This document shows positions 2,722-20,574 of a stretch of 21,267 bases of DNA, piece by piece. The translations under genes were made by a program, and so were the position numbers. Within the stretch, counting starts at the first letter, position 1. Every line of letters starts with the position of its first letter. The DNA is taken from positions 1 through 21,267 of IMG/VR virus record IMGVR_UViG_3300031758_000681; one strand, written 5' to 3'. The DNA is from a virus. Under the pieces are notes generated by a model. The model saw only the letters and a program-made list of their open reading frames with translations. It was not told where the DNA came from and made no database searches.

Positions 2722-4920
2722 TTAACTACAACTTACACAAGATATGTCATAGTCAATCAATAAGTTGACTTTTATTTCAGTATCTTGTAATGGATTTATT
2801 GTTTGTGGACCACAGTTTTTAGTGATTTCTTCGCAGTTTGTTTTTATGATAATTCTATTTGAAGGTAGGTCTATAGTAACATCTGATATTCCAACAAAGT
2901 CGTTAAGTATTGTCGATATTGCGTCTGCCCATAGTATATCATTTGGGTAATCTGTAGAACCAGAAGATGTATAAAATATAGTTTCTGCTGATTGTCCACC
3001 AACTTCAGCACCAATCGTAAAAGTTGCAGAATTTATAATACAGTTTGTATCACCACTAGTTAAGTCATTGAACCCTTCTAAATACATTGCTCGTATAGTT
3101 CTTTTAGTTACTAACCCACTATCTGTAAATGTATTATCACAAACATTATAGTATAAATAATTAGTGTATTTTTTAGTACCTGTTAATGTTGCGTATTTTG
3201 TTAGTGTACAACCACTAGCATCAGTTACAGTTAGACTGTAAGGACCTGAAGTAAGACCTGTAACAGTACTTCCTGTTTGAAGTCCTATAGTTCCTCCACT
3301 CCAAGTTAAAGTGAAAGGTGGTTCACCACTTGTGATAAACGCAGTTATAGATCCGTCATTACCATTTACAGGTTGGTTTGGATATAGATTAAAGTTTACA
3401 CTTTGACTATATGGTATATTAACCGCATATGTTTGTATACAAGGTGGTGATGAGGTATCTTGTATTGTTAACACGTAATTTCCGTTAGCTAAATTAGTAA
3501 ACGTGTTGAACTGGCTTGTAGTAGTGTTTGGGTTGTAACTTGGTCCTGTTAATGAATATGTGTATGGGAAAGTTCCTCCTGTTGACGCACTTACAACAAG
3601 AATCCCATTATTCAATCCACATGTAGTTCCGGTTACTTCAGTAGTTGCACTATATAAACTAACAGAATTTATTACTGTTGATGCGGTATAGGTACAACCT
3701 GCAGATACAACTGTTACTATATATGTTCCACTTCCGAGACCATTAAATGTTTCATTAGAACTACCAAACAATCCTATTTGACTTATACCTGTTGTTCCAG
3801 ATACCGAAATTTGTAAGTTGGTTGCAGTACTAAGTCCTCCATCAACTAAAACATTAATACTACCATCATTTACAGAACAAGTTGAGTTAGTTGTTGTTAC
3901 TGCAACAGTACTAAAAGAGTTTGGTGTTATTAAACTTACAGAATCATAAATTGTACATAAACCTGAATCTGTCACAAAAAATGAGTATAATCCTGAAGAT
4001 AGTCCCGTAAAAGTTACGGAAGTATCAAATGTTATTTCAACTTGACCTGATGATCCACTAAAAAAATATGGTGCAGTACCACCAACAACAATAAACTCCA
4101 CTTCACCATCATTGGCAAAACAAGAAGGTTGTGATACCACAATAAAACCACCTGATGTTAATGGCGGAATAGTGTTTACAGTAAATGACTGACTTAACGT
4201 ACATCCTACTGAATTAGTAACAGTAGCAACATAAGATCCAGATGTTAGTCCTGTTATTGTTGATCCTGTTTGCCCTAAAGCGTTAGGACTCCAAGTTATT
4301 GTGTATGCCGACAATGGTGGTGTTAACCCTGTTAAGAAAATTTTACCACTACCTGAACCTAAACAACTAGCATCATCAACAACATATGCACCATATGTTA
4401 AACCTGATGAAGGATTTAATATTACAGATGCGGTTATTCCTGTACATCCACCACCATCGTTTGCAACAATGTAATATGTACCGGCCGAAAGAGATGTGAA
4501 TTCATAATAAGAATTAGATGTTGTTACACCTGAAATTAAATTATTACTTATATCATATAAATTAAAAGAAACAAGTCCATAGACGCCAGACGTGAAACCT
4601 GTTATGGTTCCATTATTCTGTCCACAAGTGGTATTGGACGAATCAATAGTTGCTGTAGTGCCTGTTGAAATATAAATGTTTAAAACTTCTTTTTCTGTAC
4701 TAGAATCTGTAAGTTGAGCATAATATGTGCCTCCTGTAAGGCCAGTTACTGAGTATGTATTTGTTGCTGCAGAAAGTGGTAATAATCCTTGACCTGTTGC
4801 ATCTGAAATACTAAAAGGAGATACTGTTGGTGTACTTCCAGTTATATCAAACGAAACCGCACCGCTACCTGTATTACTACAATCCCCCGTTACACTATAA
4901 TTATAAATTAAAATACTCAT
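2722..4920 (-). CDS. SprB-repeat-like adhesin/tail-fibre protein (732 aa)
   Basis: Residues about 14 to 572 form seven consecutive beta-sandwich-like modules, starting near residues 14, 99, 186, 267, 348, 434 and 520. A typical module begins with Cys then (N)DGxI or NNGxI, passes through an aromatic strand (PYTYSL, PFTLTW), and closes with TGLTSGxYxxTVTDxxGCT. This is the pattern of SprB repeats, known from the Flavobacterium johnsoniae gliding adhesin. Modules 3 and 7 are the most alike. Residues 573-624 are a linker, and 625-732 form a separate Cys-containing domain that recurs at the end of the neighbouring 995-aa protein. There is no signal peptide or type IX sorting domain, as expected for a virion protein and not a secreted host adhesin. 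The start overlaps the upstream stop by one base (TAATG). A peripheral fibre or decoration that contacts the host surface is inferred. Confidence 0.75.
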   Translation of the reverse strand: MSILIYNYSVTGDCSNTGSGAVSFDITGSTPTVSPFSISDATGQGLLPLSAATNTYSVTGLTGGTYYAQLTDSSTEKEVLNIYISTGTTATIDSSNTTCGQNNGTITGFTSGVYGLVSFNLYDISNNLISGVTTSNSYYEFTSLSAGTYYIVANDGGGCTGITASVILNPSSGLTYGAYVVDDASCLGSGSGKIFLTGLTPPLSAYTITWSPNALGQTGSTITGLTSGSYVATVTNSVGCTLSQSFTVNTIPPLTSGGFIVVSQPSCFANDGEVEFIVVGGTAPYFFSGSSGQVEITFDTSVTFTGLSSGLYSFFVTDSGLCTIYDSVSLITPNSFSTVAVTTTNSTCSVNDGSINVLVDGGLSTATNLQISVSGTTGISQIGLFGSSNETFNGLGSGTYIVTVVSAGCTYTASTVINSVSLYSATTEVTGTTCGLNNGILVVSASTGGTFPYTYSLTGPSYNPNTTTSQFNTFTNLANGNYVLTIQDTSSPPCIQTYAVNIPYSQSVNFNLYPNQPVNGNDGSITAFITSGEPPFTLTWSGGTIGLQTGSTVTGLTSGPYSLTVTDASGCTLTKYATLTGTKKYTNYLYYNVCDNTFTDSGLVTKRTIRAMYLEGFNDLTSGDTNCIINSATFTIGAEVGGQSAETIFYTSSGSTDYPNDILWADAISTILNDFVGISDVTIDLPSNRIIIKTNCEEITKNCGPQTINPLQDTEIKVNLLIDYDISCVSCS
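2725..3048 (-). other. C-terminal domain shared with the 995-aa protein (copy 1)
   Basis: Residues 625-732 of the SprB-like protein align by eye with residues 898-995 of the upstream neighbour. Shared points in order are T(N/D)C(I/L)xNS, an aromatic strand ending FYT, then W(A/V)DA(I/L)SSTLN-type helix residues (here WADAISTILND), an I...N.I.I strand, NC, and a final strand ending in (D/E)I(S/Y)C. This suggests a duplicated attachment or capping domain. Confidence 0.65.
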
Positions 4921-7907
4921 TATTCGTTACAATATATTTCGAACTCAAGTCCTATGTTTATTTGAAAGTCATCAAAATTAGGTTGACAATTATTGTTAAA
5001 GACTGTTATTTGTTCGTTATCCTCATCAATATTATAACTATACCCTGAGGTTAGTAAATTATTTAATGTACTACTCAAAGCGTCAACCCATTCTGAATTA
5101 GTTGGGATATTGAATGGTCCAATACCTGTGTAGAAAGGTGATATTACCAATACAAATCCATTTACCCTCAAATCTACATTCCAAGTTGTTACAATTGAAT
5201 TCTGTAAACAATCGGTTGGGTTTAATGAATTTTGGCTATAAAAAGTATCTAAAGTATCATTCAAGACTGCACCCATAGATGTTATTGTAGGGTCACTATT
5301 CCAAGGATAAAGTCCACAAACCACTTGTTGTACAGGGCAATCGTATACAAATAATTGTGTTGCCAAAGAACAAGGTTTACAAGGAACAGGAACGATTTTA
5401 CAGCCTTCTTGTCTTCTCCATACAAATTTTTGTCTATGAAATATTGAATTTTCTAATCTAACTCCTGTGTTCCATATTGTAGTTGCAGGGACCATTTGTT
5501 CAACCATTCTAATCCAATAGTCACCCATACCATTAATATAATCTATCATAGTTTGGTATGTAAAATTATCATTTGGTATTCCTGCTTGTGTCTGAGATTC
5601 TAAGTATTTCCAATATATTGATTGTAGTGTTGGGTAACCTCCAGTTTTACCATCGGTAATAAATTGTCGGTTTCTAGTGTTAACCATATTTCTCCAAAAT
5701 GTTTGAGCAAATTCAAAGAAAGTTTTTTGTTTTGGTTTTGGGATAATTGTTGTCCAATCTATTCCACCATATCTTGGGTAAGGATTTGGTACACTACAAG
5801 GTGTGTCAGGAGTGTAGAATAAACCTTGTTCAGGTATTGGGTAATTATATTGTCTAGACATTGTCCAAACATCATAAACCAAACCTTGTGCGGGATTCAT
5901 CATAATGTCAACATTTTTTACATTCAATGTTAAACATTCTTCACCGACTTCATAATAAGCATTAAATCCACCATCTGAACTTACTCGTTGTGTTGGTGAG
6001 GTATCACTCCAACTTTTCTTATTATCTTGGACTTTTCTAATCTTATACCCCAAATTCATATATGGGAAATGTCTGTACAGTTGTAGATATTCCTCTCCAT
6101 AGTTGAAAGGTAAAAGTTGAGTTTGGAAATTAGGATTATCGCCTATGAATACTTGATTTGTTGGGATTACAAATTCTGGCATCCTGTGTTGAGGTGTTGA
6201 TTCGAACCATCCTCCTCCAATTTGAAAAAAGTATTCCTCCGTTGGTGTTGGCATTTTAGGACATCCAAATTCATCAACAGGATAATCTTCTCTTGTAGTT
6301 AAAACTGTTGCATTTGCAAATGTTGTTGTAAAACCAGTGTACTGAATACCTTGTATTGAGTATGTGTTGTTAGTTTCTAATACAGGATATTCTTGTAGGA
6401 AAGTTCCTCCCGATAATTGTAAGTACTGTTTATTAAACTCACTCATGTTAATTCTTTGATCAGCAACATAAATGTGTTCGTTAAAATCAATTAAAGCCTC
6501 AGGAGCTCCAACCATCCTCAAGAGACACTCAATAGATTTTCTTGTTCCTTTTGATTTAAATAACCACGCAGAATTTATAATTAAGTTTCTGTAAAATTGA
6601 TAATTAATTTCCTCAGGCGTTGGTCCTATTTGTAAACCAGGAAAAGTATTTGGTTGTGTTGTAAAAACTGCCTGTAACAATTCTTCATTCGATATAGGTG
6701 AAAAGTTTGTTACCCAACCTAATGTTTGTGCCAAATTTTTCAAAAGTTGTGACGGTATATCATTTTTAACAGTATAGTGAACACTATTAATATTACCTAA
6801 CGCCGAAATGAATGCTTTAGTTTCGTCAAAACTTCTACCATAAATCTGTAAAAGTTTTTCAAATTTATGATCAGGTGTATCAAACTCTTTCAGAGCACCT
6901 GTCGTTAAAAATCTTGAAACTAAATTCGTGTTATATGAATCAAGATTTATTGCAAAATCGTTAATTTGTGTTAGGTAGTTATCAAATGTTTGTGATTCAA
7001 TATCTAAGTTCCAAAGTCCTGATTTTGGGAATGTGGCAAGTTCTGTTGTTATCTTAAATGTTCCATCTTCTTGTTCTCTTGGTACTGTAAAAGTTGCGGT
7101 ATATGGAGGATTAATATTTCTATTTAATAAAAAATTCTCAACAGGATCAAACTTCAGATTAAATACTTTATTAACTTCATAGTTATTTGGTCTTATAACA
7201 ATATAATCGTAAGATATTGAATTCCCGTTGAATGGGTTTCCATCAACAATTAATTTTAATGTAGATGAATTACTTGTCGTAGGGTACAAATAATTTACAG
7301 GATATTCATTGCCGTTGACAACTAAGGCGTATTTTTTATACTCCAATTTCATATTCCTCAGAGGTGAAACTTCCATCTCATTAAACAACATATTAGTTTC
7401 AGCATTAACGGTGTAATCTATGTCAAATGGATTTCTAATAGATGATACTGAAACTTCGAAAGTTGTGTCGTCCTCTACCGCATCGTAAGTTATATTAAAT
7501 GCCGTTTCTTGAGTTATAAACTTATTTGTATTTGGTGAAACCTCTAATCCTGCAGGATAAAAGTTGATTATCTTAGTTATTGAAACTGAAAATCTTTTTA
7601 CTAAAGAACCATATTGGGTAAAGTTTGTTACTTGAGATAAATCATAATTTGGGTAAACTCTATAGTTGTTAGCTAAAATCTCAGCGGCTTCAATATTATT
7701 ATCAATATTTATACTCTCAAGATTTATTGGATCTGAAAACGTACCAATATTAAACGTTCTATTCTGTTTTTCGGATATGTTTGTTGTGAAGTTAAAATTT
7801 GCTTGCGTTAACCCTCCTCCAGTGACTAACTGAACTCCAACCAAATTATTTGAGAATTCATTGGCGGCACTACTTTGAGGTGGACAAGTAAACTTCTGTG
7901 TGGCCAT
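4920..7907 (-). CDS. Large baseplate protein with P2 gpI/T4 gp7-like segment (995 aa)
   Basis: The middle of the protein (about residues 345-490) has the features of the P2 gpI tail-protein family, the equivalent of T4 gp7 and TssG in the (gp6)2-gp7 wedge core: a helical region with LLQIYGRSFDE, then LAQTLGW, then a helix running into SKGTRKSIECLLRMVGAP with the typical KGT at 453-455. N-terminal residues 1-340 are beta-rich and unrecognised. Residues 836-864 hold a cysteine cluster (C836, C843, C846, C857, C864) that could bind a metal or form disulphides. Residues 898-995 are the domain shared with the 732-aa protein. At 995 aa it is far longer than P2 gpI (under 200 aa) and nearer to T4 gp7 (1,032 aa). 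It joins both neighbours by TAATG overlaps. The wedge role is inferred from the KGT segment and from its place between gp6 and the fibre; no search was run. Confidence 0.6.
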   Translation of the reverse strand: MATQKFTCPPQSSAANEFSNNLVGVQLVTGGGLTQANFNFTTNISEKQNRTFNIGTFSDPINLESINIDNNIEAAEILANNYRVYPNYDLSQVTNFTQYGSLVKRFSVSITKIINFYPAGLEVSPNTNKFITQETAFNITYDAVEDDTTFEVSVSSIRNPFDIDYTVNAETNMLFNEMEVSPLRNMKLEYKKYALVVNGNEYPVNYLYPTTSNSSTLKLIVDGNPFNGNSISYDYIVIRPNNYEVNKVFNLKFDPVENFLLNRNINPPYTATFTVPREQEDGTFKITTELATFPKSGLWNLDIESQTFDNYLTQINDFAINLDSYNTNLVSRFLTTGALKEFDTPDHKFEKLLQIYGRSFDETKAFISALGNINSVHYTVKNDIPSQLLKNLAQTLGWVTNFSPISNEELLQAVFTTQPNTFPGLQIGPTPEEINYQFYRNLIINSAWLFKSKGTRKSIECLLRMVGAPEALIDFNEHIYVADQRINMSEFNKQYLQLSGGTFLQEYPVLETNNTYSIQGIQYTGFTTTFANATVLTTREDYPVDEFGCPKMPTPTEEYFFQIGGGWFESTPQHRMPEFVIPTNQVFIGDNPNFQTQLLPFNYGEEYLQLYRHFPYMNLGYKIRKVQDNKKSWSDTSPTQRVSSDGGFNAYYEVGEECLTLNVKNVDIMMNPAQGLVYDVWTMSRQYNYPIPEQGLFYTPDTPCSVPNPYPRYGGIDWTTIIPKPKQKTFFEFAQTFWRNMVNTRNRQFITDGKTGGYPTLQSIYWKYLESQTQAGIPNDNFTYQTMIDYINGMGDYWIRMVEQMVPATTIWNTGVRLENSIFHRQKFVWRRQEGCKIVPVPCKPCSLATQLFVYDCPVQQVVCGLYPWNSDPTITSMGAVLNDTLDTFYSQNSLNPTDCLQNSIVTTWNVDLRVNGFVLVISPFYTGIGPFNIPTNSEWVDALSSTLNNLLTSGYSYNIDEDNEQITVFNNNCQPNFDDFQINIGLEFEIYCNE
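4923..5216 (-). other. C-terminal domain shared with the 732-aa protein (copy 2)
   Basis: Residues 898-995 begin TDCLQNS, continue to SPFYTG, WVDALSSTLNNL, an EQITVFNNNC strand and end EFEIYC. The order and spacing of these elements match the end of the downstream SprB-like protein with only small gaps. The domain sits directly after the cysteine cluster of the wedge-like protein. Confidence 0.65.
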
Positions 7908-8812
7908 TAAGCAACAATATTATTAAAAGCTTTAGAGAAATCGATATTTTCATTACGATTTTGTCTAACTTCATAAAGAAGAGTATTAAACTGATCTTTA
8001 ATTTCATACAAGTTGTATTGTTGGTAGATGTTATTGTCAGCGTCGTAAATAGTGTAAATACCGTCCTCAATAGATTTAGTTTGGTTACCGTAAAGTGCTA
8101 TCGCTAAAGTTGAAATATCTTGATCTACTATTTCAATCTCTGTTGATATTGGATTGAAGTAAGTATTACTTATTATAATACTTTGGTTAGGTTGTCCGAT
8201 ATACGGAGTTGCACTTGGTTTGTTTGTTGGTGATGAAGATGGTGAAAGTGTACAAAATAAAAGATTTGTTGCACCTTCAACATATCTATATCTAATAGAT
8301 TTTTGAATTGTGTTAGTTAAGTTTTGAATGACTGGTTCACAGTAGAATGAAGATGTTATTATTCTAAAGAAGTTAGGAATTTTTGTTCCATCGGGATTCA
8401 AATATTCCACTCTAAATCCTACAAGTCCTTGATTAACAAATTTATTTCTATATTCTGTTGGTACATTATTCAAATCAATTACTATTCCTTTAACATTTGG
8501 TAGAGCAGATAAAACACCACAATCTGTGATAGTCGTTCTAATTTGTGCGGGTCTAATCATTAAAGTATAAATTCCCAAACTTGTGAACTGATCGGCAGGT
8601 AGTTTTAAACTATACAACCCACCTAAAACTTCAACAGTATTTCCTCCTGTTGCATTATTATTGAAGTATGGTCTTAAGACATCTTGAGCATTTAATGTTG
8701 TTAAAATGAAGTTTTGTGTGTCATCTCTTGATGGTGTATAAACCATAACGATTTCCACGTCTTCAGGACTGACATCCGCTGGTCTAATAGTTCCGTAATT
8801 ACCTGTAGCCAT
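7907..8812 (-). CDS. Phage structural protein of unknown function (301 aa)
   Basis: I do not recognise a family. The protein begins MATGNYGTIRPADVSPEDVE and is rich in beta-forming residues, Asn and Thr, without signal peptide or membrane helix. Residues about 208-235 are a Ser/Pro/Thr-rich linker (SPSSSPTNKPSATP), which separates an N-terminal domain from a shorter C-terminal one ending in a polar helix. Such a layout suits a structural connector in the tail. It follows a 27-bp gap with a long A-tract on the coding strand and a TATTTATA motif, so it may start a new transcript or translation unit. Its TAA overlaps the ATG of the 995-aa gene by one base, which couples it to the gpI-like protein. 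A baseplate-associated role is inferred from position only. Confidence 0.7.
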   Translation of the reverse strand: MATGNYGTIRPADVSPEDVEIVMVYTPSRDDTQNFILTTLNAQDVLRPYFNNNATGGNTVEVLGGLYSLKLPADQFTSLGIYTLMIRPAQIRTTITDCGVLSALPNVKGIVIDLNNVPTEYRNKFVNQGLVGFRVEYLNPDGTKIPNFFRIITSSFYCEPVIQNLTNTIQKSIRYRYVEGATNLLFCTLSPSSSPTNKPSATPYIGQPNQSIIISNTYFNPISTEIEIVDQDISTLAIALYGNQTKSIEDGIYTIYDADNNIYQQYNLYEIKDQFNTLLYEVRQNRNENIDFSKAFNNIVA

Positions 8813-8839
8813 TTGTTTTTTCTTTTTTTTTATAAATAG
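8813..8839 (-). promoter_or_regulatory. A-tract leader with AACTATTTATA motif
   Basis: On the coding strand this 27-bp gap reads AACTATTTATA, then a run of A broken by G and C, up to the ATG of the 301-aa gene. TATTTAT lies 19 nt before the ATG. The gap ahead of the 1,863-aa gene has nearly the same block, AACTATTTATG followed by A residues, at almost the same distance (18 nt). No Shine-Dalgarno sequence is present; the A-rich leader could itself help ribosome binding in Bacteroidetes. Confidence 0.4.
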
Positions 8840-10015
8840 TTATGTTGATACTTTTTCAATGTTGAAATATTTGTATCCGTATTTTTCTAAGTCTCCTACA
8901 TTATCAACTTCCCCAATTCTTTGTATATTTTCCAATGGTGTGTATTTACCTCTCTCAACAAAAACATTAGTAATGATTTCAGGTTGATCTATAACATTTA
9001 ATAAAGCCTCATTTTTTGTTAATGCCGTTAAAACAATATCACCAGGAACTAAACCATAAGAATCTGTAACATAAATGGTATAATCTTCGTAGTCCAAATA
9101 AGTCATACCATTTATGGTATATGCTGTATAAGAATTACTCGGATCAGGTCCCCAAAATGTTCCAATAGCCCCTGTTGTTCCTGTAACCTGAACTCCTAAT
9201 TTAAATTTACCATCATATAAATTTGTTTTAGGTCCAAATTGTGCTAAGTCGTTAACAGAAGATAAGGTTAAACCTGTTATTGGAAATGGAACTGATGTAT
9301 AATTGTAGGAATAATAATCAATTATGTTTGTGTTTGAGTCACCTGTAAAAATATAATCATAACTTATAGGTGTTGCCGACCAACTACCTCCCGCAGGATA
9401 AAACGTTATTGATCCGTTTGGATTTGGTATTGTTGCATTTGTGTAAGGTACAATAATATCTTTTTGAACTTTTGAAATACCCCATGGTGAGTTTGCCGTA
9501 AGTGTTATTGTATAAGATGTTTGACTAACAGGATATGTATGTGTTATTGGTGAAATACCTAAGACTGCTTGTGGTGCTGATCCATCACCCCAATCTAAAG
9601 TATAAGTAACTAATTGTAAGAATTTTATTAACTCTAAATCTGAAGTATTATAAAATGTGAAAGTGTAAGGATTTATTGTATTTGCTGTTACAATAAAATT
9701 ATTTAAAACGTCAAGTTGTAAAATTAAACCGTCCGTTGGCGTGTAATACCCAATGTCCACAGTAGATTCTGTAAACATTAAATTAACCGTTAATCCCGTT
9801 AAAAATGATGTACCACCTGTATTTCCTGATAACACATATTCCATTGGTAAATAAACACCTGTTGTCCCTGTTGTTACTGCACTAAATGTAAATGCTGTTA
9901 AACAACAAGGGTCTATGATTGTCGTTATATCTGTCTCCCCTGTATAAGGAACAAATACTAAATCACTCTTGATGTTTTCAGGAGAAATTATGAAATTATA
10001 TTGTTGTAATTCCAT
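8840..10015 (-). CDS. Structural protein with PKD-like domain (391 aa)
   Basis: Residues about 117-190 look like a PKD domain: a strand ending in LDWGDGS (W142-G143-D144-G145), a short loop, then ITHTYPV and the strand pair TSYTITLTANSPWG. PKD domains are Ig-like folds found in surface proteins of many Bacteroidetes and in some phage tail proteins. Flanking regions are rich in Gly and Thr and probably also beta-structured; a vicinal Cys pair lies at 37-38. The C-terminus (about 350-391) is more polar, with the segment LEKYGYKYFNI. No signal peptide is seen. It is joined to the upstream 267-aa gene by a TAATG overlap and is followed by the 27-bp A-tract gap, so it may end a translational unit. 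A decoration or connector role in the baseplate periphery is inferred. Confidence 0.7.
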   Translation of the reverse strand: MELQQYNFIISPENIKSDLVFVPYTGETDITTIIDPCCLTAFTFSAVTTGTTGVYLPMEYVLSGNTGGTSFLTGLTVNLMFTESTVDIGYYTPTDGLILQLDVLNNFIVTANTINPYTFTFYNTSDLELIKFLQLVTYTLDWGDGSAPQAVLGISPITHTYPVSQTSYTITLTANSPWGISKVQKDIIVPYTNATIPNPNGSITFYPAGGSWSATPISYDYIFTGDSNTNIIDYYSYNYTSVPFPITGLTLSSVNDLAQFGPKTNLYDGKFKLGVQVTGTTGAIGTFWGPDPSNSYTAYTINGMTYLDYEDYTIYVTDSYGLVPGDIVLTALTKNEALLNVIDQPEIITNVFVERGKYTPLENIQRIGEVDNVGDLEKYGYKYFNIEKVST

Positions 10016-10818
10016 TATGGATTAACATATTCATACCATTTTATCGGTGATAATCCGTCCCCAACTCTTAAGTTTGTTGAAGTGGAGAATACCTCGTAAG
10101 TTTTAGTTGCGTAATTCAAACTATATCTATAATAGAAATAGTCTGCATTATTAAAAGTAAATTTGGTTGGTGTTATTAAATCTTGTCTTGTATTGGTCAT
10201 TTGTTTAAAAAAACCTAACCTAGCATCAAAAAATTTTGCAGTCACATAAAAAGTATCGACATCTATAAAATCTCTACTTCTTAACCAATAAATAAAAAAT
10301 CCTTCTTTATCACCTAAATAATCTAAAACCATTTTTGGTTTTTTAATTTCAACTGGTGGGACTAAAGGAGATATAACAACTGTTTGTGTTAATCCTTGTT
10401 GAACAGGTAAAATTACAGATAGATAGATTTGTTGATCTCTTTCATCTGCAGTATCATAAAAATCCAACTTAAAAAACGATTTAGTAAACGGTTTTGAATA
10501 GTAGTAAATTTCTTCCGCGGTGAATCCGTTATTTAAATATGAAATATTCCAGTTACCAACAGTGTTTGCTGTTATTGGTTGTGAATCATCATAAAAATAA
10601 AATTCATAATTAATTGCTGTATCTTGATTCTGAAATATATTATGTGGAAACCTTGCAATTTCAAAATCCGCCGCAGGTCCTATAACTTGATCAAGTACAC
10701 TCACTTCGTATTCATCAATCGCATCATCTTTACCCATAAAATCCCATTGCATGTTAATTGGTATATTAACAAATTGTTCAAGTTCGGTTTTTAAAATTTT
10801 TATTCTATTCGCATTCAT
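10015..10818 (-). CDS. Baseplate-region structural protein with shared N-terminal motif (267 aa)
   Basis: No named family is recognised. Residues 13-21 read LEQFVNIPI and match, in the same place from the start, VDKYINVNL of the 1,863-aa protein, and VDQFINVPF of the 598-aa protein; the preceding RIK is also like RIR of the larger protein. The rest is rich in Tyr, Phe and Asp, with no membrane segment. A polar, aromatic C-terminal half (YFYYRYSLNYATKTYEVF) suggests beta sheet. The start overlaps the end of the 598-aa gene by 14 bp, and the stop overlaps the next ATG by one base. I infer a virion protein that docks onto the same partner as its two upstream neighbours. Confidence 0.7.
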   Translation of the reverse strand: MNANRIKILKTELEQFVNIPINMQWDFMGKDDAIDEYEVSVLDQVIGPAADFEIARFPHNIFQNQDTAINYEFYFYDDSQPITANTVGNWNISYLNNGFTAEEIYYYSKPFTKSFFKLDFYDTADERDQQIYLSVILPVQQGLTQTVVISPLVPPVEIKKPKMVLDYLGDKEGFFIYWLRSRDFIDVDTFYVTAKFFDARLGFFKQMTNTRQDLITPTKFTFNNADYFYYRYSLNYATKTYEVFSTSTNLRVGDGLSPIKWYEYVNP

Positions 10819-12601
10819 CTGTAGTTGGTTCTGCTATTGTTGTTATGTTCAATGGAACCGAACCTGAAATTGCATAATCATTTGGTATATTATATAATTC
10901 AGGAGTAATTCTAAAAATTGTATTTTTATAAGGATAATGAGCATTATTTAAGAACGGATAATCAACACCAATACCGTCAGTATCAATAAAACCATAAGGA
11001 TATTTATCTCTCCATCTAAATAATGCCGCCATAGTTGAGTAATAAGCATAATCAGGAATACCAACAACATTTGATGAATCACCCTCTTCAATGTAATCTG
11101 AAAATGCCGCAATTTGTATTGCACTGTGTGGTTGATAAAAATAACCTGGCTGATTTGTGGGTAAGAAATCATTATAAAGTGTGAACCATAATGGGTTATA
11201 TTTTATTTTATGTTGATACAAAGAAATAACTCTTTCTAATTGTTCGTAATTATTCCACTCACAATAATCACCATCTATAGTGTCACCAGACTGTAAAAAA
11301 TCATTATAAAAGAAAGGTCCTGATCCTAACAATGAAACATAACTATTTTGATTAACAATAACATTTGAGTTAACATTATTGTCATCCCACCATGATTGAG
11401 GTTTTTTATTCTCTAAGAAGGTGTTAAAGTACCACCCTTGTTTTAGATCTTTAGTCCATCCAAAATAACCTCTCCAAATTGACGTAAAAAATAATTCACT
11501 TAAGGGTCTTCCTTGGTTATCTCTCAATGGTTGTATATCAACATCACAATTAAATGAAAGGGTATACGATCTATTACCTTCTTTTGTTGACACTCTAGCT
11601 TTGTTATTTGGTGTTAAAACTTTTATTTCACATTTTCTTTTATCTCCATAAATATTTCTTTCAAACCCTGCATTTACTAAGACAGAACATTCTTGATTTG
11701 TTAATATTCTGTGTTTTCTTATATAATATTCACTAACAGTATCTCCCGAATTTGCGGCATTTATAACTCTTTTGAAAGTCCCTTGTGAATTTGTTTGGAA
11801 TGTTGTTCCTGTATAACCAATATTTTTAATGTTGAAAATAAATGCGTCCGATCCATCTCCAGTGTCCCCCAAACTTGATACCTGAAACATTTCAGTTCCG
11901 TTATAGTTTGTTGATAATAAAACAAACTCTCCTACTTGTAAACCATGTTCTACAGGACACTTAAATGTAATATTCAACCCATTCAAATCGTTACCCACCA
12001 TTATATAGTATGGTAAACCATCTGAAGCAACCCAAGACCAATTAATTTGAGAATTAGGTTCAACGGCAAATAAATTTTTATTATAATCATTTATAAAAGC
12101 ATAACTTAAATAGTGACTCCAATTGTAAGTTGTTGCACTTACGTTTTTAAAATCTAAATGATTATTTGGTGGTTGAGTATAACCAATTACATCATTATCT
12201 GTTCGTATAAAATCGAATTCATAATATTGTGGAAATCCTGTCCACTGAACTGTTTGGACTGTTGATGGGTTTGGTCCAAAATTTCCTGATGGGTAATATA
12301 GAATAGCGTTATTTAGTTCATTTGTATAATATAGATTATCTCTATATGGAACATATTTTGTTGACCCAGTATAAGCGTTTTCAAATAAAACCGTAAATTT
12401 GGTAACAGGTCTGAATATTGTGGACGCTTGTCTTTCTTCATCAAAAACAGTTGCCAAACTCAAATCAACACTTCTATCATATTCGATTAAGTCTTTTGAA
12501 GTTTGAGCGAACGGTACATTTATAAATTGATCAACTTTTGGTGCCGATTTATATCTCTGCGTTGATTCTATTATTCTTGTTGATGGATCTACTGTCATCA
12601 T
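10805..12601 (-). CDS. Baseplate-region structural protein with shared N-terminal motif (598 aa)
   Basis: No named family is recognised. Residues 23-31 read VDQFINVPF, the motif shared with both neighbours. The body is rich in Trp, Tyr and Asn, typical of beta-structured tail proteins. Residues about 205-245 (FKCPVEHGLQVGEFVLLS) resemble a small beta-barrel loop motif. There are no signal or membrane segments. Two in-frame ATGs lie at 12599-12601 and 12596-12598; the first gives an ATGA overlap with the stop of the 1,863-aa gene and the second shares its terminal base, so either is possible. By order (gp6, then two large proteins) it takes the place of T4 gp8, but I see no gp8 sequence signature, so that name is not used. 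Confidence 0.7.
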   Translation of the reverse strand: MMTVDPSTRIIESTQRYKSAPKVDQFINVPFAQTSKDLIEYDRSVDLSLATVFDEERQASTIFRPVTKFTVLFENAYTGSTKYVPYRDNLYYTNELNNAILYYPSGNFGPNPSTVQTVQWTGFPQYYEFDFIRTDNDVIGYTQPPNNHLDFKNVSATTYNWSHYLSYAFINDYNKNLFAVEPNSQINWSWVASDGLPYYIMVGNDLNGLNITFKCPVEHGLQVGEFVLLSTNYNGTEMFQVSSLGDTGDGSDAFIFNIKNIGYTGTTFQTNSQGTFKRVINAANSGDTVSEYYIRKHRILTNQECSVLVNAGFERNIYGDKRKCEIKVLTPNNKARVSTKEGNRSYTLSFNCDVDIQPLRDNQGRPLSELFFTSIWRGYFGWTKDLKQGWYFNTFLENKKPQSWWDDNNVNSNVIVNQNSYVSLLGSGPFFYNDFLQSGDTIDGDYCEWNNYEQLERVISLYQHKIKYNPLWFTLYNDFLPTNQPGYFYQPHSAIQIAAFSDYIEEGDSSNVVGIPDYAYYSTMAALFRWRDKYPYGFIDTDGIGVDYPFLNNAHYPYKNTIFRITPELYNIPNDYAISGSVPLNITTIAEPTTDECE

Positions 12602-15600
12602 TCTTCTGTTGTTGCTACATAAAGTTTATAGAATCTATTCAAAGCAGTTTTACCATTGTTCAAACCAAAGTAGAAATGGTAAGGTGCTCCGACAACTACT
12701 GCTTGATTAGCGCTACCAATAGGTTGTCCCTGATTGACAACTGATGGCGGTATAAGTGGTTCAGGTACACCAGCTAATGTATAGTTTGAAATGTAACCTA
12801 AATTAGTAGTACTTGTAATATACTTTTCACCCAAAGTTGTAAAATCTAGATCTTGGTATTTTTTCTTAAAGAAACCTTGTCCAACAACATTTGTATACCA
12901 ATTATTGTCTTCAGTTCCAAATATGTTTTGACTTGGGTTACTTTGTTTTAAACTCCACTTGTAATGTGGAACCACTTGTGATTTACCATATCCAAAGTAA
13001 TTTTGAATTAATGGGTTGAAGTTATACGTTTCAATACCTGGTGATTCAATTTTTCTATATCTTAAATTTTCAAGAGGGGTTTGGAAAAATAGTCCCATAA
13101 TAGGTTTTATATCATTTGCCCCTGATGGAGGGGTTGCAGGATAATAATTATCACCAAAGAAAATAAAATCATTAGCATTTGGTCCTGTAAGGTTTTCACT
13201 TATAAATGGTAAAACCTTCCATTCCGAGTTGATTGATAACATTTGTGCCCAATCTCCGTCTATTCTGTATCCTCCCCTTGTGCTATTGAAGAATTGTTCA
13301 ATTCCTTTACCCTCAGTATTATTTTGACCTTGTCCTATTGGTAATATTCTTTGTCTTACACCTTCATTCAATATTCTTGATAAAAACCCAAGTTGTATAA
13401 TGTCTGAGTTATCTTGATATGAGGTAGATTTTAATTGGTCAGCATAATAGGATCCAAACCCGTTTTCACCAGCCCCACAACAGATCTCATTTATAAAAAA
13501 GTCTCTTGGTCCTAAATCTGTAAGTGTAGTTGGAAATTGGATTTGTCTATCATTATACCCAAAACCTGGGAATGTTGCCAATCTTTGTGGTATTAATGGA
13601 TTAATTTGTGGTTTATTCTTACCAATAAATTGTTGGATGGTTTTATTCCAAGGAGATGATCTGTAGAAAAAACTATTATTAATGTCGTCAAATACAATAA
13701 CATCAGTACAATAATCATAATTTGGTATCAATGGATTAACACCGAATGTTTGTCTTTTGTTAAAATTAAACATATAAAGAACTCCGTTGATCCAATTGTT
13801 TTGGAATACTTGAGCAAAAACTCCTCTACACGCAGCAAAGTTCATGGTAAATCTAACTTTCCATTCTAAAAATAATCTCACATCTGAACCATACTCTTTG
13901 ACATATTTTTTATTAAGAAGACAGTAACATCCATTTATCATCCTGTTTTCAGGTATAGAACATTGTCCTGCAGGTATTACACCAACATTATTTCCTGAAC
14001 CGCTATAACACTCTAAAGGAACCATACCTTCACATGTTAAAGTAGAGGTCAAAGCTGAAGTTGGTCCAGTTTCATCAAAACTATCACCTGATGGTAAGTC
14101 AGCACCTGCAGTTATTGTTGGTGGTTCTAATTCACCACTAACAGTATAAACCGCAAAATTGTTGTTCTGATGTAAAGCATATCCTGTTGTAGGACTTGCT
14201 CCATTTTCAACTCTTGTTGAGGTTGGTAACCTATCACTTCTCATGATTATAAGAAGTGAATTTCCAAAATTTATAGGTGAAAAAGATTGATTATAATATG
14301 CCGGAGAATATAAAGAACTTAGATTACCATTTCCTCCACATGAAGATTGTTGTTGAAAATATCCCGCATTAGTGTTATAATATTGTTTCTTTTGATTATC
14401 GTCAGATATTGCGGTATCAGTCAACATGTTTGATGAAAACGGATTGTTACCAACCCATCCTAAAAACGCACCACCCCCAACATATGTCGTTGGATTTGCT
14501 TGGTTTCTTGGTAAAGTATATTGTGAACTCGAGTCAACATAAACAAAAGGAGAACCTTGTGTTTGTGTTGATACATTTAACCATCCAGGTGTTGGTGTAT
14601 ATGATGGTGTGTCATCAGTACTTAAATAAAAATAAGGTAAATTTGATGTAAAACCGCTATAGTTGTTTGGGTTGATACTTGGTGGTGTAATTGTAAAATT
14701 ATAAGATGGAAAATACAATTTAACATTATTGTTATTTGTTGTATTGTGTGTTTGAGGTTTTTGAGATACCGTAGAACTTTGTATTGGTACATTCAAATAA
14801 TAACTACCACTGATCACTACACTTCCATTGAACGAAGTATGACCAAATATTTTAGACACGTCGTAAGAAATTGTTTGAGGTGCGGTGTGAGGGTCAACAC
14901 CTCGAACAAAAATACAAACTTCAAAATTTTGCCAATTCGGCATAGTGTATAAAACGTCTTGGATTGTGTATGGACCAAAAGAAGGACAAATAGGCACATT
15001 ATTTCCATTACATATTGGATAATTAAATTGTACATTGTGTTCTAAATAAGCACTTTTGTAATATCCTGATGTTCCTAAAGAAGTGTTTACAAAGTCTGTT
15101 ACAGTTAAACCAGTTAACAATTGGAAATATTCTATATCTGTCGGATATTGTAAAAAACTTTGTTCTTGTGTTATAGTTCCCGCAACTTGACTAACTTGTG
15201 GTTGATCAATATAAATTATTGCCGGTAAACTTGATGTTCCATTTGAGTTAGATGGGTCTGCATAATTCACAGTATATGTTGTAACACCTGTGGTTGTTAA
15301 ACCTGTAATTGCATTGTTACCAAATTGATTCAGTGTTGCACCCGTAAGGTTTCTCATTCTAAACTGAGAACCTGAATCCATATAGTTTGGATCTTGGAAA
15401 GAACAAATACCACCAGGTGTAATTGACGCTGCGGTTCCTGAATTCATCAAAACAACAACAACTTGATCAAAAAATGGTGTTGAACCTGAAATTGGGTTTA
15501 CAGTTGTTTTGATTTGGTTAACACCTGAAAAATATTTATCTCTTGTATTGAATTGATTTAATTGTTGTGGAAAAGTTGCCGTTGTTGGGTAAGCAAAATA

Positions 15601-18189
15601 CCTTTCATCTGCAATACCAGCCCCTTGTTTGTTTGCAGACCATAAAAACGGTTGAGGAGCATGTAACAAATATTGTTCGTTACTATATAATTTATTTGGG
15701 TCGGTTGATGATAATACATCATAACCTGAAATTATTCTTTTGAAATCCAAGGCCGCCTTTACAGCAACCGCAGTGCTAATATCGTTTTGTCCTAATAATG
15801 ACTCAAAACTTTTGAATCCGCCCGTACTTCCACATTGGAATGGGTCGTCTCCATTATCATCGTTTTCAAAATTAGGATGGGAAACATCGTATGATCCAGG
15901 AGAATTAACAGGCGCAATTACACTATTTGTTTGAGTCAATACTACATCAAACCCAAGTCCGCTTGAGGGGTCTTGTAAACTATTTTGAATTTCCTGTTGT
16001 TCTTGTGCTAAAGTATTTGCATCAAAGTCATCATCCAAAGTTGCTGTTCCACAATCACAATCACAACTTGTACAGTCAGGATATGCAATCATAGGTAGAC
16101 CAATTCTTGGGAAATTGTCTATCTTACCATTTTGGGTATTATCAAGAAAGAATTTTGTATAAAAATATGTAAACGCCAAACCAGCTGCGACTTGAATTAT
16201 AACTTTGAGCCCTTGAGCAATAATTTGTAAAATAGTACCAATTGAAATTACCGGTCCTCCTAATGGTGCAAAATCACCAAGACTAGTAATATAATAAACT
16301 AAATCTATTCCCGCAGAAACACCCTGATATACAATATATGGTCCAAGGAATAATAACAAGTATTTCAATACAGGCCACAATAACGCAATCAAGTGGGCGA
16401 CAAATAACAATACCAAAATTGGGAATGTCAAAATATTAACAAGTACATTAAAAACAAAAAAAATAGGATCAAAGTTCCTTATTATATCATTTACTGGAAA
16501 AGTGTTAACAGTTGATTTACAAGTTCTGTTGTCAATTTCTTTTATACCTAAATGTTTTGCCCTTCCAATTCCGTTTTTATATCTATCAAGGAACATTGCC
16601 GTTGTATAGACTTTATTGTATTGGAATTCGTAAAAGGTATCTTCACAATTGATTGCTTCTTGTTTGTTAACATAATCATCCCAATCGGTACTAAAGGCAT
16701 ATGATCTGTAAAGATCAAATAGAGCTTGTGGGTATTGTTTAAATGTTATAACTTGTGGTTGAGAGGGGTCAACAGGATTTGCAACAATTTGAAGTTGATC
16801 TCCTGGTGTTATTTCAATAGCGTTTAGAGTTCCTGTATATGGTTGTCCATTTATGTATATTATATAAGATTGGACATTGGTTGTTGTTGGGTCTGCCAAT
16901 CCTTGTGCCGTCCCAAAAACAACTGTAGATCCTGTGACAACACCAACACCTAAATTATAAGGGTATGTTGAGGGTGTGTTATTTGTTAATGGATCTACAG
17001 TATAATTTGTCCATCCATATTCTTTAACATTAGGGACTAAAAAATTGGCTCGTAAAAAACTCCCTTGTAATCCTTGTTCGTTTTGCCATTTAAATTTAAA
17101 TCTATATCTACCTTTTGTTGGGATACCTTTTGATGGGTCGTCAGATAATACTTGTTGACCAAATTCATTTGTAAAAACGTAATCCAAATTCATAGGAACA
17201 TTCAATAGGTATGTTCCATCTTGATCGATAACTTTTCCTTCCTCTTCTATTTGATATTGTTCAAGTATTGGTAATCCTTGATCGTCAGAATTGATTGTGT
17301 GTCTAATTGCCAAAATTTCGCCAGGTCCTGAAACTATTTCACAAAGATTTCCTGTATTGTTTTTTGGTTTACAACTTACTTTTAATGCATCATCATCTGT
17401 TGTAGATATAATTGACCCCATGAAAATTGAGGTCGGTTGTATATTAATGTTTGCTAATTTTGTCAAATCAAAATCAACTCGTGTTATCGCAACTTGACAT
17501 AAATCAGGATCTCCCCAAAAAGGAGATACGTCAACGTCAAAAACTAAATTTTTAATTTGTGGTAACTCTCTTAGATTTGTTGAGGATTTGAATGTAGATC
17601 CATTCACTTGAGACTCTGTTGCTAATCCTTGTTGAATTAAATCTTGTGGTGATAATGAAAAACATCCAATATCGGAAAGATCAACATCCATAACAATAGT
17701 TTGGTTTCCAACAGGAACACCAAAAATCATAAAGTCACCACTCTCATTAGTTTTAACAGTAAATCTATAATACTTATCGTAGACTTCAATGTATGAGTCA
17801 TCCATTAATACATCAGACACATTTGGGAATGATCCTGTAGATTGGTGACCTCTGTATGATGGTAACTTGGGAAGTAAGTTATATCTATAACCTTCTTCAT
17901 TAGTATCTGTGATAGTTTTGTATGGGTATAATTCTGAAATTACAGGATTTAGTTCATCCGCATCATCAAGGGGAATAAAAACAGAAACCCTTGCATTTGG
18001 TAAACCAAAACCATTATTCACAAAAACTCTACCAACCACAACTCCGTAATCAGCACACATTCTTGTATAAACATCATTTGCAAGTATTTTCAGTGAGAGT
18101 ACTTCTAAAGACTCCCAATCTTGTTCTAAATTTACATTGATGTACTTGTCAACACCAACTTCGGTTCTTATTCTGTATGATTTTGGCAT
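12598..18189 (-). CDS. Giant baseplate-associated protein with Ig-like modules and a membrane-like stretch (1863 aa)
   Basis: This is the largest gene of the window and directly follows gp6, the place of gp7 in T4, but no gp7 similarity is visible. Residues 13-21 (VDKYINVNL) are a motif shared with the next two proteins. Residues about 49-110 (VVVGRVFVNNGFGLPNARV ... TDTNEEGYRYNLLP) and 140-175 (FTVKTNESGDFMIFGVPVG) look like carboxypeptidase-regulatory-like Ig folds. Residues 575-682 are strongly hydrophobic and could form three or four membrane helices. A cysteine cluster CTSCDCDC follows at 706-713. The remainder is long, beta-rich and rich in Asn, Gln and Thr, ending in a Tyr/Phe-rich region. 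The frame is intact throughout, with a T8 run inside the hydrophobic part. A virion role is inferred from context. Confidence 0.75.
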   Translation of the reverse strand: MPKSYRIRTEVGVDKYINVNLEQDWESLEVLSLKILANDVYTRMCADYGVVVGRVFVNNGFGLPNARVSVFIPLDDADELNPVISELYPYKTITDTNEEGYRYNLLPKLPSYRGHQSTGSFPNVSDVLMDDSYIEVYDKYYRFTVKTNESGDFMIFGVPVGNQTIVMDVDLSDIGCFSLSPQDLIQQGLATESQVNGSTFKSSTNLRELPQIKNLVFDVDVSPFWGDPDLCQVAITRVDFDLTKLANINIQPTSIFMGSIISTTDDDALKVSCKPKNNTGNLCEIVSGPGEILAIRHTINSDDQGLPILEQYQIEEEGKVIDQDGTYLLNVPMNLDYVFTNEFGQQVLSDDPSKGIPTKGRYRFKFKWQNEQGLQGSFLRANFLVPNVKEYGWTNYTVDPLTNNTPSTYPYNLGVGVVTGSTVVFGTAQGLADPTTTNVQSYIIYINGQPYTGTLNAIEITPGDQLQIVANPVDPSQPQVITFKQYPQALFDLYRSYAFSTDWDDYVNKQEAINCEDTFYEFQYNKVYTTAMFLDRYKNGIGRAKHLGIKEIDNRTCKSTVNTFPVNDIIRNFDPIFFVFNVLVNILTFPILVLLFVAHLIALLWPVLKYLLLFLGPYIVYQGVSAGIDLVYYITSLGDFAPLGGPVISIGTILQIIAQGLKVIIQVAAGLAFTYFYTKFFLDNTQNGKIDNFPRIGLPMIAYPDCTSCDCDCGTATLDDDFDANTLAQEQQEIQNSLQDPSSGLGFDVVLTQTNSVIAPVNSPGSYDVSHPNFENDDNGDDPFQCGSTGGFKSFESLLGQNDISTAVAVKAALDFKRIISGYDVLSSTDPNKLYSNEQYLLHAPQPFLWSANKQGAGIADERYFAYPTTATFPQQLNQFNTRDKYFSGVNQIKTTVNPISGSTPFFDQVVVVLMNSGTAASITPGGICSFQDPNYMDSGSQFRMRNLTGATLNQFGNNAITGLTTTGVTTYTVNYADPSNSNGTSSLPAIIYIDQPQVSQVAGTITQEQSFLQYPTDIEYFQLLTGLTVTDFVNTSLGTSGYYKSAYLEHNVQFNYPICNGNNVPICPSFGPYTIQDVLYTMPNWQNFEVCIFVRGVDPHTAPQTISYDVSKIFGHTSFNGSVVISGSYYLNVPIQSSTVSQKPQTHNTTNNNNVKLYFPSYNFTITPPSINPNNYSGFTSNLPYFYLSTDDTPSYTPTPGWLNVSTQTQGSPFVYVDSSSQYTLPRNQANPTTYVGGGAFLGWVGNNPFSSNMLTDTAISDDNQKKQYYNTNAGYFQQQSSCGGNGNLSSLYSPAYYNQSFSPINFGNSLLIIMRSDRLPTSTRVENGASPTTGYALHQNNNFAVYTVSGELEPPTITAGADLPSGDSFDETGPTSALTSTLTCEGMVPLECYSGSGNNVGVIPAGQCSIPENRMINGCYCLLNKKYVKEYGSDVRLFLEWKVRFTMNFAACRGVFAQVFQNNWINGVLYMFNFNKRQTFGVNPLIPNYDYCTDVIVFDDINNSFFYRSSPWNKTIQQFIGKNKPQINPLIPQRLATFPGFGYNDRQIQFPTTLTDLGPRDFFINEICCGAGENGFGSYYADQLKSTSYQDNSDIIQLGFLSRILNEGVRQRILPIGQGQNNTEGKGIEQFFNSTRGGYRIDGDWAQMLSINSEWKVLPFISENLTGPNANDFIFFGDNYYPATPPSGANDIKPIMGLFFQTPLENLRYRKIESPGIETYNFNPLIQNYFGYGKSQVVPHYKWSLKQSNPSQNIFGTEDNNWYTNVVGQGFFKKKYQDLDFTTLGEKYITSTTNLGYISNYTLAGVPEPLIPPSVVNQGQPIGSANQAVVVGAPYHFYFGLNNGKTALNRFYKLYVATTEE
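16144..16467 (-). other. Hydrophobic, membrane-like segment of the 1863-aa protein
   Basis: Residues 575-682 hold long runs of Ile, Leu, Val, Phe and Ala with almost no charge: one around 577-605 (FFVFNVLVNILTF, then ILVLLFVAHLIALLW), one around 608-636 (KYLLLFLGPYIVYQG), and one around 645-678 (ISIGTILQIIAQG, then VIIQVAAGLAFTYFY). The segment is followed by the polar KFFLDNTQNGK and the cysteine cluster. Predicted number of helices: three to four, by eye. Confidence 0.75.
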
Positions 18190-18267: not shown

Positions 18268-20109
18268 CTATGAGAAATTAACGGATTTCAAGTTCAATAC
18301 TCTTACATTAATATCTTTGTTTGGGAATCGAATTTGATAGATTTGTGTTGGAGTTGCAAACAAAGTATCTGCCGTTGGTTGTATTTGTCTTGTTACAGGA
18401 TCCGAATAAGGCATAGATGTTTGTGCCGAAGAGTATTGACCTCCAACTTGATTAAAGAATGAAATGTCAGAAATACTAACTATACCGTTTTCTGCTTGTA
18501 TTAGTCTTCTAAGTTCAGATATGTTTACATTTTGACCTAACTGTATAACTAATGGATTAAAGAAGTTACTAACAATTTCAATTGTTTTTGAAATAATTGC
18601 ACCTTGGTTTTGACTATTATCTAATACAACATCAACAGTAACAGCCAAATCAATTGTTTCTGCCGCTTCAACGGAAATATAATCATTGATCATTCTGAAG
18701 TTAGATAAATAATTTGCGATGTTTTGTTTTAAAGTATTTGAAACAACATTAGATAAACTACCATTAGTGTCGTATGACAACATTTTGATTCTAATTTTAT
18801 TATTTTCTTCAGTGATTGCAACTTTTGCTGGTGCGCCATATTGTGACGGCATTGTTCTTATTAATGAATTATAATCATTAACAGTTACTGCTCTGTTCTG
18901 AGCTGCGAAGTTAAATGAAACCATATTTCTAACATCTTCTGTTGTTGGTAAATTAGCACCACCAATTGCGGCAGTTACGTTATTACACTGAAGACTATTA
19001 ATAACACTTCTATTTACAGAATCAGAAGGTCCATTAACTGCGAATGAAACTGTACCAATTTGATTGATTGTATTTAGACCTACATTACTAGCTAATCCAC
19101 CCCCAATTCTGTATTGAACGAATAGTGTTGTATTTGGTGTTAAAGCCGCACCCATAGCGTAATTGTTAGTATATCTACTTAAATCAAATCCTTTACCATC
19201 TCTAGCGAATTCTCTTAGTTGTTCTTCGGCCGAAATGTTACCACCACCAAAAGTCATTTTACAGAAACCTTGTGGTGTGTATTCAGAAATAAATTTATTA
19301 GAGGTTGTGATGTATCTTCCAACTTTAATACCTGGTTGATCTGAAACTTTAGTTGGGTCTTCAACAAAAACTCTATCTTGAACTAATGCATCAACCTCAA
19401 ACCATCTTTCAGGCCCCAAACTTAAAAAATCTTGCGGATTTGGTACTGTTGAATATTGTGTTCCTGGTTTCAACAACACACTTGTAATTCCTAATATATT
19501 TTTTTCAGGGAGAAATAACTCTAAATATGGTTTTACATCATTTGCGGTAATTGTTCTTTTGAACACTTTTGTAACTCCATTTACAACAACTTCTCTTTTA
19601 ACAATGGTGTAATTTATCAATTTACCACTTGAATCAAAATTTGGTATTTTTAATCTGTTTGGTGATCCTTCAGCATTAATTGGTGATGCAAAATCAATGT
19701 CATAGACAGTTTCAAAAGGTTGTCCAGCACCATTAACTAAAGATCCTCTTCTTAAGATTCCACAATATCTTATGTCTTCTCTATCACCAAAAGCAGGAAC
19801 TGTTATTGAGAAATCAACTAAAGCAACCGATGGTCTTTGACCAGGTACTTTAAGACCATAAGTTCTTGCAATATTATAAACCGAATTCTTTTGTTGTGCA
19901 AATTGTAATACAGTTTCTTGGATACTTCTATCAATTTGATAATTCAAGTTATCAGTTACCGCGGCGTTAAGATCCAACATAACTGAAAAAATCCCAGCAT
20001 CATTAAAGTTCTGAACTAAATCAGGATAGTAAGTTCTTGTGAAATTTATTAACTCAGATCTTACTCCTTGAAAATCTCGGACCGTATAGGATATCTTTTT
20101 TTCAGCCAT
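18268..20109 (-). CDS. gp6: Baseplate wedge protein, T4 gp6/P2 gpJ family (613 aa)
   Basis: gp6 forms the dimeric ring of the wedge that holds the baseplate hub and triggers sheath contraction. The N-terminal helical part has the family look: FTRTYYPDLVQNFNDAG, then LDLNAAVTDNLNYQIDRS with QETVLQFAQQKNSVYNIAR and YGLKVPGQRPS. The central part is beta-rich. In the C-terminal half, AQNRAVTVNDYNSLIRTMPS followed by PAKVAI is the usual signature where the protein enters its baseplate-J-like fold, and GQNVNISELRRLIQAENGI closes it. At 613 aa it is close to T4 gp6 (660 aa). The gene lies 6 bp after gp25. The W-J adjacency is the same as in P2. No Shine-Dalgarno is present; the ATG is preceded by ATTTAATGATAT. 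Confidence 0.93.
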   Translation of the reverse strand: MAEKKISYTVRDFQGVRSELINFTRTYYPDLVQNFNDAGIFSVMLDLNAAVTDNLNYQIDRSIQETVLQFAQQKNSVYNIARTYGLKVPGQRPSVALVDFSITVPAFGDREDIRYCGILRRGSLVNGAGQPFETVYDIDFASPINAEGSPNRLKIPNFDSSGKLINYTIVKREVVVNGVTKVFKRTITANDVKPYLELFLPEKNILGITSVLLKPGTQYSTVPNPQDFLSLGPERWFEVDALVQDRVFVEDPTKVSDQPGIKVGRYITTSNKFISEYTPQGFCKMTFGGGNISAEEQLREFARDGKGFDLSRYTNNYAMGAALTPNTTLFVQYRIGGGLASNVGLNTINQIGTVSFAVNGPSDSVNRSVINSLQCNNVTAAIGGANLPTTEDVRNMVSFNFAAQNRAVTVNDYNSLIRTMPSQYGAPAKVAITEENNKIRIKMLSYDTNGSLSNVVSNTLKQNIANYLSNFRMINDYISVEAAETIDLAVTVDVVLDNSQNQGAIISKTIEIVSNFFNPLVIQLGQNVNISELRRLIQAENGIVSISDISFFNQVGGQYSSAQTSMPYSDPVTRQIQPTADTLFATPTQIYQIRFPNKDINVRVLNLKSVNFS

Positions 20110-20115
20110 ATATCA

Positions 20116-20574
20116 TTAAATATTTAATATAACAAAATCTTGTGATTCAAATGCCGAATCAGTGATTTTATAATCAATTTTGATTCTTGCCGTGTGTTCT
20201 AAATTGGCAATGTTTGTAACTTTAAATTCTCGTTCACCATATTGGTTAACCGTATAACCTTTATCTTCAAGTCCTGCAGATGCTGGTTCAACAACAATAT
20301 TTGTAACTTGTAAGTTTGGCATAAATGTTCTAATGGTGTCCCTTATCTCCGCCTCAATATCTGAAAACGTAGGACCATCAAGTGGTTCGAATATATATTC
20401 ATATAATCTTGTCCCAAAATCAGGTAAAAAATATCTACTTCCTTTTCTTGTTAAAAGTAAGTGAACTAGATTACCTCTAATTTCAGCTTCGGTAGTTTCA
20501 GTAACATCCAAATATCTACCTGTAAACGAATCAACGAAGGGAAACCCTATACCGTATGTAATACCATTTGCCAT
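20116..20574 (-). CDS. gp25: Baseplate wedge protein, gp25/GPW/TssE family (152 aa)
   Basis: gp25 clamps the wedge core and starts sheath assembly. The match is seen in LVHLLLTRKGSRYFLPDFG followed by LYEYIFEPLDGPT, which parallels T4 gp25 (TTRKGSRPFDPEFG ... LFENMTP), then helix ADIRDTIRTF-like residues and a final beta hairpin. The length (152 against 132 in T4) is normal, with about 20 extra C-terminal residues. The place where the family carries the EPR tripeptide (YEPR in T4) reads FMPN here. The gene starts the structural block after the nrdA terminator, and its leader carries TATTTATA. It precedes gp6 by 6 bp. Confidence 0.93.
   Translation of the reverse strand: MANGITYGIGFPFVDSFTGRYLDVTETTEAEIRGNLVHLLLTRKGSRYFLPDFGTRLYEYIFEPLDGPTFSDIEAEIRDTIRTFMPNLQVTNIVVEPASAGLEDKGYTVNQYGEREFKVTNIANLEHTARIKIDYKITDSAFESQDFVILNI

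Follow-up and report, generated by a model that had tools for sequence, protein, structure and literature searches.

A short N-terminal segment common to adjacent baseplate-region proteins of an uncultured phage lineage, a candidate docking arm

Three adjacent genes in a 21267-base virus record (the window, that is, the whole stretch of DNA analysed here) encode proteins whose bodies are unlike but whose N termini carry a short segment of alternating hydrophobic residues. Profile comparisons of these proteins—A (1863 aa), B (598 aa) and C (267 aa)—make it very probable that the segments of A and C are real shared sequence, and likely that B shares it too, B's copy being by sequence the weakest of the three. 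Our preferred reading, to which we give roughly even odds (about 0.5), is that the segments are docking arms by which A, B and C would be plugged into a common groove.

Results

The minus strand carries all the large genes of the window. In the direction of transcription these run from what we take, by eye only, to be the end of a ribonucleotide reductase gene, through a gp25-like baseplate wedge protein (20116–20574; PF04965, E = 2.3e-13) and a gp6-like one (18268–20109; PF04865, E = 2.9e-5; phrog_219, E = 3.5e-18), to A (12598–18189), B (10805–12601) and C (10015–10818). There follow D (391 aa, with a PKD match slightly under the cut-off), E (301 aa), F (995 aa; 4920–7907), G (732 aa), a 98-aa protein and a fibre-like protein. 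The A, B and C genes overlap by 4 and 14 bases, and the gp25- and gp6-like genes immediately precede A, which gives the trio neighbours from a T4-type contractile-tail baseplate module. The fibre-like protein (1–2403) contains a long GTSGTNG-type repeat, over which the opposite strand is open.

Relatives of the module were gathered from viral contigs with B as the query (69 loci), with A (the best 80 of 247 relatives, 73 of them new loci) and with a profile of distant A proteins (at least 80 further rows, at least 72 of them new loci); one related locus comes from a metagenome-assembled Paludibacteraceae genome. Both the ORF set and the locus set contain redundancy, and counts drawn from them are not counts of independent events. 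The order gp25–gp6–A is found in 140 of 162 loci holding both A and B, with several of the remaining loci incomplete. A–B–C is unbroken in 83/83 distinct trios; every locus reaching more than 1500 bases beyond A has B, and every locus reaching more than 700 bases beyond B has C. Recurrence beside the same neighbours, which the initial annotation had named as support for its proposal, thus holds in related loci long enough to show it.

Named phages offer few counterparts. Searching them with tblastn returned no homologue of B (E limit 0.01), of E (limit 1), of A (limit 1) or of two distant A proteins (limit 1). For B, a viral library yielded a single full-length relative: an uncharacterised protein of an uncultured phage. 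A gp6 search found 20 records, including LR756508, Microcystis phage Mel-JY01 and Flavobacterium phage immuto, at 24–27% identity. An alignment of the large proteins downstream of gp6 in these three is related by profile to F (hhalign 95.1% across 171 columns, E = 3.2e-8) and not to A (profile probability 0.3%); despite this kinship, no library names F. In 32-kb stretches of the three phages, HMMs of A, B, C, D and E matched nothing. The F HMM (first 450 residues) also missed the profile-related proteins there, so the absence of A to E is weak evidence where remote relatives are concerned. On the simplest reading, these three phages lack an insert, A–B–C–D–E, that separates gp6 from F here. 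In Mel-JY01, two neighbouring genes (locus L145, 24005–26139) encode proteins of 357 and 352 aa that by eye resemble paralogues.

The three ORFs and the peptides first reported for them were verified: VDKYINVNL at residues 13–21 of A (18127–18153, minus strand), VDQFINVPF at 23–31 of B (12509–12535, minus strand) and LEQFVNIPI at 13–21 of C (10756–10782, minus strand), with RIR (6–8) and RIK (5–7) upstream of the segment in A and C, respectively. Homologue profiles align at this same segment, strongly for A and C and less so for B with C and A with B. The refined motif reads D-[KQ]-x-h-x-h-(P)-h-x-[QM], followed in A and C by x-[FWY]-[DE]. The asparagine of the earlier description is not part of the core, being lineage-specific (40% of A, 46% of B and 56% of C).

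In A, the motif spans residues 14–28, DKYINVNLEQDWESL (18106–18150, minus strand), and is defined by column conservation and by the profile match to C. Its columns are D/N14, K/Q15, hydrophobic residues at 17, 19 and 21, Q23 (98%), an aromatic at 25 and D/E26. The C motif occupies the same residues, 14–28, EQFVNIPINMQWDFM (10735–10779, minus strand), and is supported by profiles, conservation and per-genome ranks; here we find D/N14, K/Q/R15, hydrophobics at 17, 19 and mostly 21, P20 (83%), M/Q/L23, W/F25 and D26 (83%). The aromatic–acidic pair thus falls at 25–26 in both. B follows the pattern as far as D24 (74%), Q/L25, hydrophobics at 27, 29 and 31, P30 (48%) and Q33 (64%), without the aromatic pair. 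A distant A protein (locus L219) reads LNVPIVQTFD and has the proline that elsewhere characterises B and C.

Residues 42–57 of B, DRSVDLSLATVFDEER (12431–12478, minus strand), are a possible and tentative second copy. Compared as short segments, copy 1 of B was equalled by 0/200 shuffles against each of the A and C profiles, and is weaker in the single-family HMM searches described below. For possible copy 2, the score was reached by 1/200 shuffles with A, 0/200 with C and 35/200 with copy 1.

Coding variation points to the peptide as the conserved unit. A 12-residue peptide of A, DKYINVNLEQDW, is written by 30 distinct DNA sequences. That the peptide stays fixed while its DNA varies indicates selection at the peptide level in A and rules out a nucleotide-level explanation there. 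One B peptide has 5 DNA encodings and one C peptide 11. Recent duplication is unsupported, the motif DNAs of the window having only 18–21 of 39 bases in common. Motifs from the same clade are somewhat more alike than motifs paired across clades, the excess being positive for all pairs (p = 0.19–0.37 with 5 clades and 0.11–0.17 with 17, neither significant; 0.02–0.06 with 28; at most 0.02 with 39). Since related clades do not count independently, this excess, and the co-adaptation of motifs that it might reflect, is only suggestive.

We compared N-terminal profiles built from 57 (A), 54 (B) and 48 (C) representative rows. A and C align with hhalign probabilities of 93–95% and E of about 3e-7 to 3e-8 for a single comparison (93% and 3.4e-7 for the alignment over columns 9–28 of each). 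Alignments with B are weaker: A 4–28 with B 14–38 (12%, E = 0.0025) and B 20–38 with C 10–28 (18%, E = 0.0014), again as single comparisons. The initial annotation would have withdrawn its claim if shuffled sequences aligned equally well; after shuffling of target columns, the observed scores were reached in 0/300 trials for A–C (32.5), 0/300 for B–C (18.4) and 2/300 for A–B (17.7). Unlikeness of the three bodies, also claimed at the outset, agrees with profile–profile probabilities of 0.1 to 0.5%.

All 28 pairings of the N termini of eight module proteins (those from gp25 to F: gp25, gp6 and A–F) were scored. The three pairs within A, B and C reach 32.5, 19.1 and 17.6, against 6.0–14.4 for the remaining 25. 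By this sequence measure the motif appears confined to A, B and C within that set of eight. Scanning the module proteins other than the query in sliding windows (231, 212 and 245 windows) gives the same picture for two of the three queries: the N terminus of A finds that of C best, then that of B, and the N terminus of C finds that of A, then that of B. The N terminus of B is the exception: an internal window of F scores 21.8 against it, higher than C at 18.4 and A at 17.7, a result that speaks against B's membership.

Single-family N-terminal HMMs were then run against 7359 ORFs of related loci, a redundant set, and the best 60 foreign matches of each were classed. The C-only HMM found 57 A, 2 B and 1 unclassified protein, and the A-only HMM 44 C, 11 B and 5 unclassified. 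B gave a more diffuse result, with 34 unclassified, 15 C, 6 F, 5 D and 0 A for copy 1, and 47 unclassified, 11 A, 1 C and 1 gp25 for possible copy 2. A second search took the first 45 residues as query, module proteins as targets and the best 50 foreign matches. All 50 for C were A; those for A were 45 C, 4 B and 1 gp25, with the A/C matches nearly all N-terminal; those for B were 26 C, 13 D, 8 A, 2 gp25 and 1 of another family. Of the control queries, D, F, gp6 and gp25 placed 1, 4, 1 and 1 of their best 50 near an N terminus, and E placed 26/50 there, 25 of its best 50 being D. In bit score one control came close: the best match of gp6, an internal stretch of gp25, reached 9.1 bits, and A's best match to C 9.4 bits.

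The signal can also be read within single genomes. When 13-residue segments were scored with BLOSUM62, the N-terminal site came first among a median of about 2300–2600 module-protein segments of that length in 49/64 distinct trios for A–C, 23/64 for A–B and 25/64 for B–C, and it fell within the top 1% in 63/64, 48/64 and 43/64, respectively. On 12 contigs of 42–272 kb, some of which had supplied rows to the profile, a mixed A+C profile recovered A in 12, C in 9 and B in 2 (E = 0.10 and 0.97), together with one internal match in another protein. Taken as sequence, the shared N-terminal peptide of the initial annotation is confirmed.

Further candidates were considered and set aside. A 594-aa protein on a 153-kb contig (E = 0.056) matches internally and is unrelated by eye. 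F matches B internally, at residues about 437–450, and we treat this as chance although it scores above C and A; the whole-profile comparison of F and B gives 0.5% at that stretch. A putative second N-terminal motif of D and E, 'SPE' (7907–10015), was dropped, the D–E profile score being matched by 44/300 shuffles.

AlphaFold2 models of B (m15c68163b897, mean pLDDT 85) and C (mcea46c1ac65f, mean pLDDT 84) are each differentiated into an N-terminal arm and a beta-rich body. The arm of B, residues 1–44 (12470–12601, minus strand), is modelled mostly as low-confidence coil with three helical residues (13–15), and is followed by a helix at 49–59, which begins inside possible copy 2, and then by the confident body. 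The arm of C, residues 1–29 (10732–10818, minus strand), is low-confidence coil, followed by a low-confidence helix (30–46) and by a body in which 20/22 ten-residue blocks from residue 51 are at 85 or above. Block means from residue 1 are 41, 47, 41, 40 and 60 in B and 47, 54, 48, 65 and 52 in C, values to which the thin alignments (46 and 51 sequences) could also contribute. In both models the motif segment is thus predicted to lie outside the folded body. At its other end, B has a low-confidence tail (571–598; 10808–10891, minus strand), and cysteine is its last or second-last residue in 50/54 representative rows; of the other four, three are cut by the contig end and one (L120) has no such cysteine.

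Fold searches place neither body in a known family. The best VIA-align score for C is Z = 5.5 (3klq_B), and that for B is Z = 8.2 over 85 residues, covering a single barrel-like domain at residues 190–283 (8qt6); both are within the range of common arrangements. Foldseek found no match in the PDB for either model at E ≤ 0.001, and sequence searches of solved structures gave none for A 1–300 or for C, and for B only matches at E = 0.73–0.97.

A is composed of an arm, a carboxypeptidase-regulatory-like domain and a large body. The first domain matches PF13620 (CarboxypepD_reg) at E ≤ 0.1 in 48/53 members (best 2e-5); the A of the window itself scores 18 bits at residues 142–166, under the curated cut-off of 32.3. 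Long hydrophobic stretches resembling membrane segments lie at about residues 575–690 (16120–16467, minus strand), which is unexpected for a baseplate-region protein. A simple hydropathy scan finds at least two such stretches in 45/57 A homologues over 1100 residues, and a cysteine-rich stretch follows the hydrophobic region.

The initial annotation knew of no named motif of this kind, and we recognised none for the arm in Pfam, PHROGs, PDB sequences or the searched literature. An A+C motif profile gave 0 matches to PDB chains at E ≤ 10, and no title or abstract opening in the literature covered, which mostly excludes subscription journals, describes this motif. The locus shares gp25- and gp6-like genes with the T4-type wedge module, whereas A, B and C themselves have no Pfam or PHROGs match identifying known wedge proteins; as T4 gp7–gp12 in particular, they have no identifying Pfam, PHROG or PDB sequence match, single C members being weak in PHROGs (best 0.0053).

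Discussion

The motif is unnamed in the libraries and papers searched, but it is a familiar kind of element. PMC8406304 describes the feet of TssG in the type VI secretion baseplate: two copies of a short, unfolded segment, each carrying a repeating hydrophobic pattern, that plug onto a shared baseplate surface, the TssK trimer. Their likeness to the arms proposed for A, B and C is a functional one; as described there, they differ in being loops toward the C terminus of one protein, with LG repeats, where ours are N-terminal and on three proteins. According to PMC3457955, the adenovirus fibre binds the penton base through a conserved N-terminal FNPVYPY peptide. That too is short, conserved and N-terminal, but it belongs to one fibre family of an animal virus and is another motif. 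We consider both systems analogies, not relatives. The anchor and XD domains in the tailspikes of CBA120 and its relatives are set apart by their description in an abstract: a 335-residue N-terminal region in TSP4, against an arm of 13–20 residues here.

A docking peptide would best explain a conserved amphipathic arm that lies outside the modelled bodies and recurs on several neighbouring virion proteins. Under this reading A, B and C would each have a flexible N-terminal arm, in which an extended run of alternating hydrophobics is homologous among the three or strongly co-selected. During assembly each arm may become ordered as a strand, the strands filling hydrophobic grooves, equivalent or pseudo-equivalent, in a single baseplate component beside gp6, and three unlike proteins would so be plugged into the same wedge. 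The occupants would be A with its carboxypeptidase-regulatory-like domain, B with its barrel-like domain and C as a small beta-rich protein. The shared docking first proposed for these N termini is, to this extent, partly supported.

The main rival is that the arms bind each other, as an A–B–C heteromeric clasp whose homologous strands would form a pseudo-symmetric sheet or prism. Such pairing is possible between homologous strands, and the unbroken adjacency and overlaps of the three genes suit such a complex; yet no result favours pairing over a common receptor, and we hold the clasp possible but clearly less probable than docking. Single-chain models are equally compatible with a common groove and with mutual pairing of the arms.

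It is unlikely that the segments, at least that of B, converged on a generic amphipathic strand and share no partner. In favour of convergence, beta-rich proteins often show alternating hydrophobics, the scores of B are modest, and the internal F window outscores A and C against B's N terminus. For A and C, convergence is already disfavoured: their match stands far above the null of windows from the same module proteins and above every shuffle, and it extends beyond the hydrophobic pattern to the initial D/N and K/Q, the Q or M and the aromatic–acidic pair.

Less likely still is an assembly or processing signal, chaperone-bound or cleaved at maturation, in place of a structural plug: T4-like heads do have short N-terminal signals common to unlike virion proteins, but the present genes lie among tail-base genes, with gp6 on one side and F on the other, and not with head genes.

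Returning to docking, we raise a doubtful extension, that this unnamed peptide marks a lineage-specific ring or shell of a contractile baseplate, to which unlike proteins might have been recruited by gaining the same plug, possibly twice in B, making it a socket array with exchangeable occupants. Should the arm prove to be a common plug, it would provide a sequence handle for unknown proteins co-located in the baseplate across a large lineage of uncultured phages, would offer a simple rule by which new proteins enter such a machine, and would make the assembly question directly testable through deletion or exchange of a peptide of about 15 residues.
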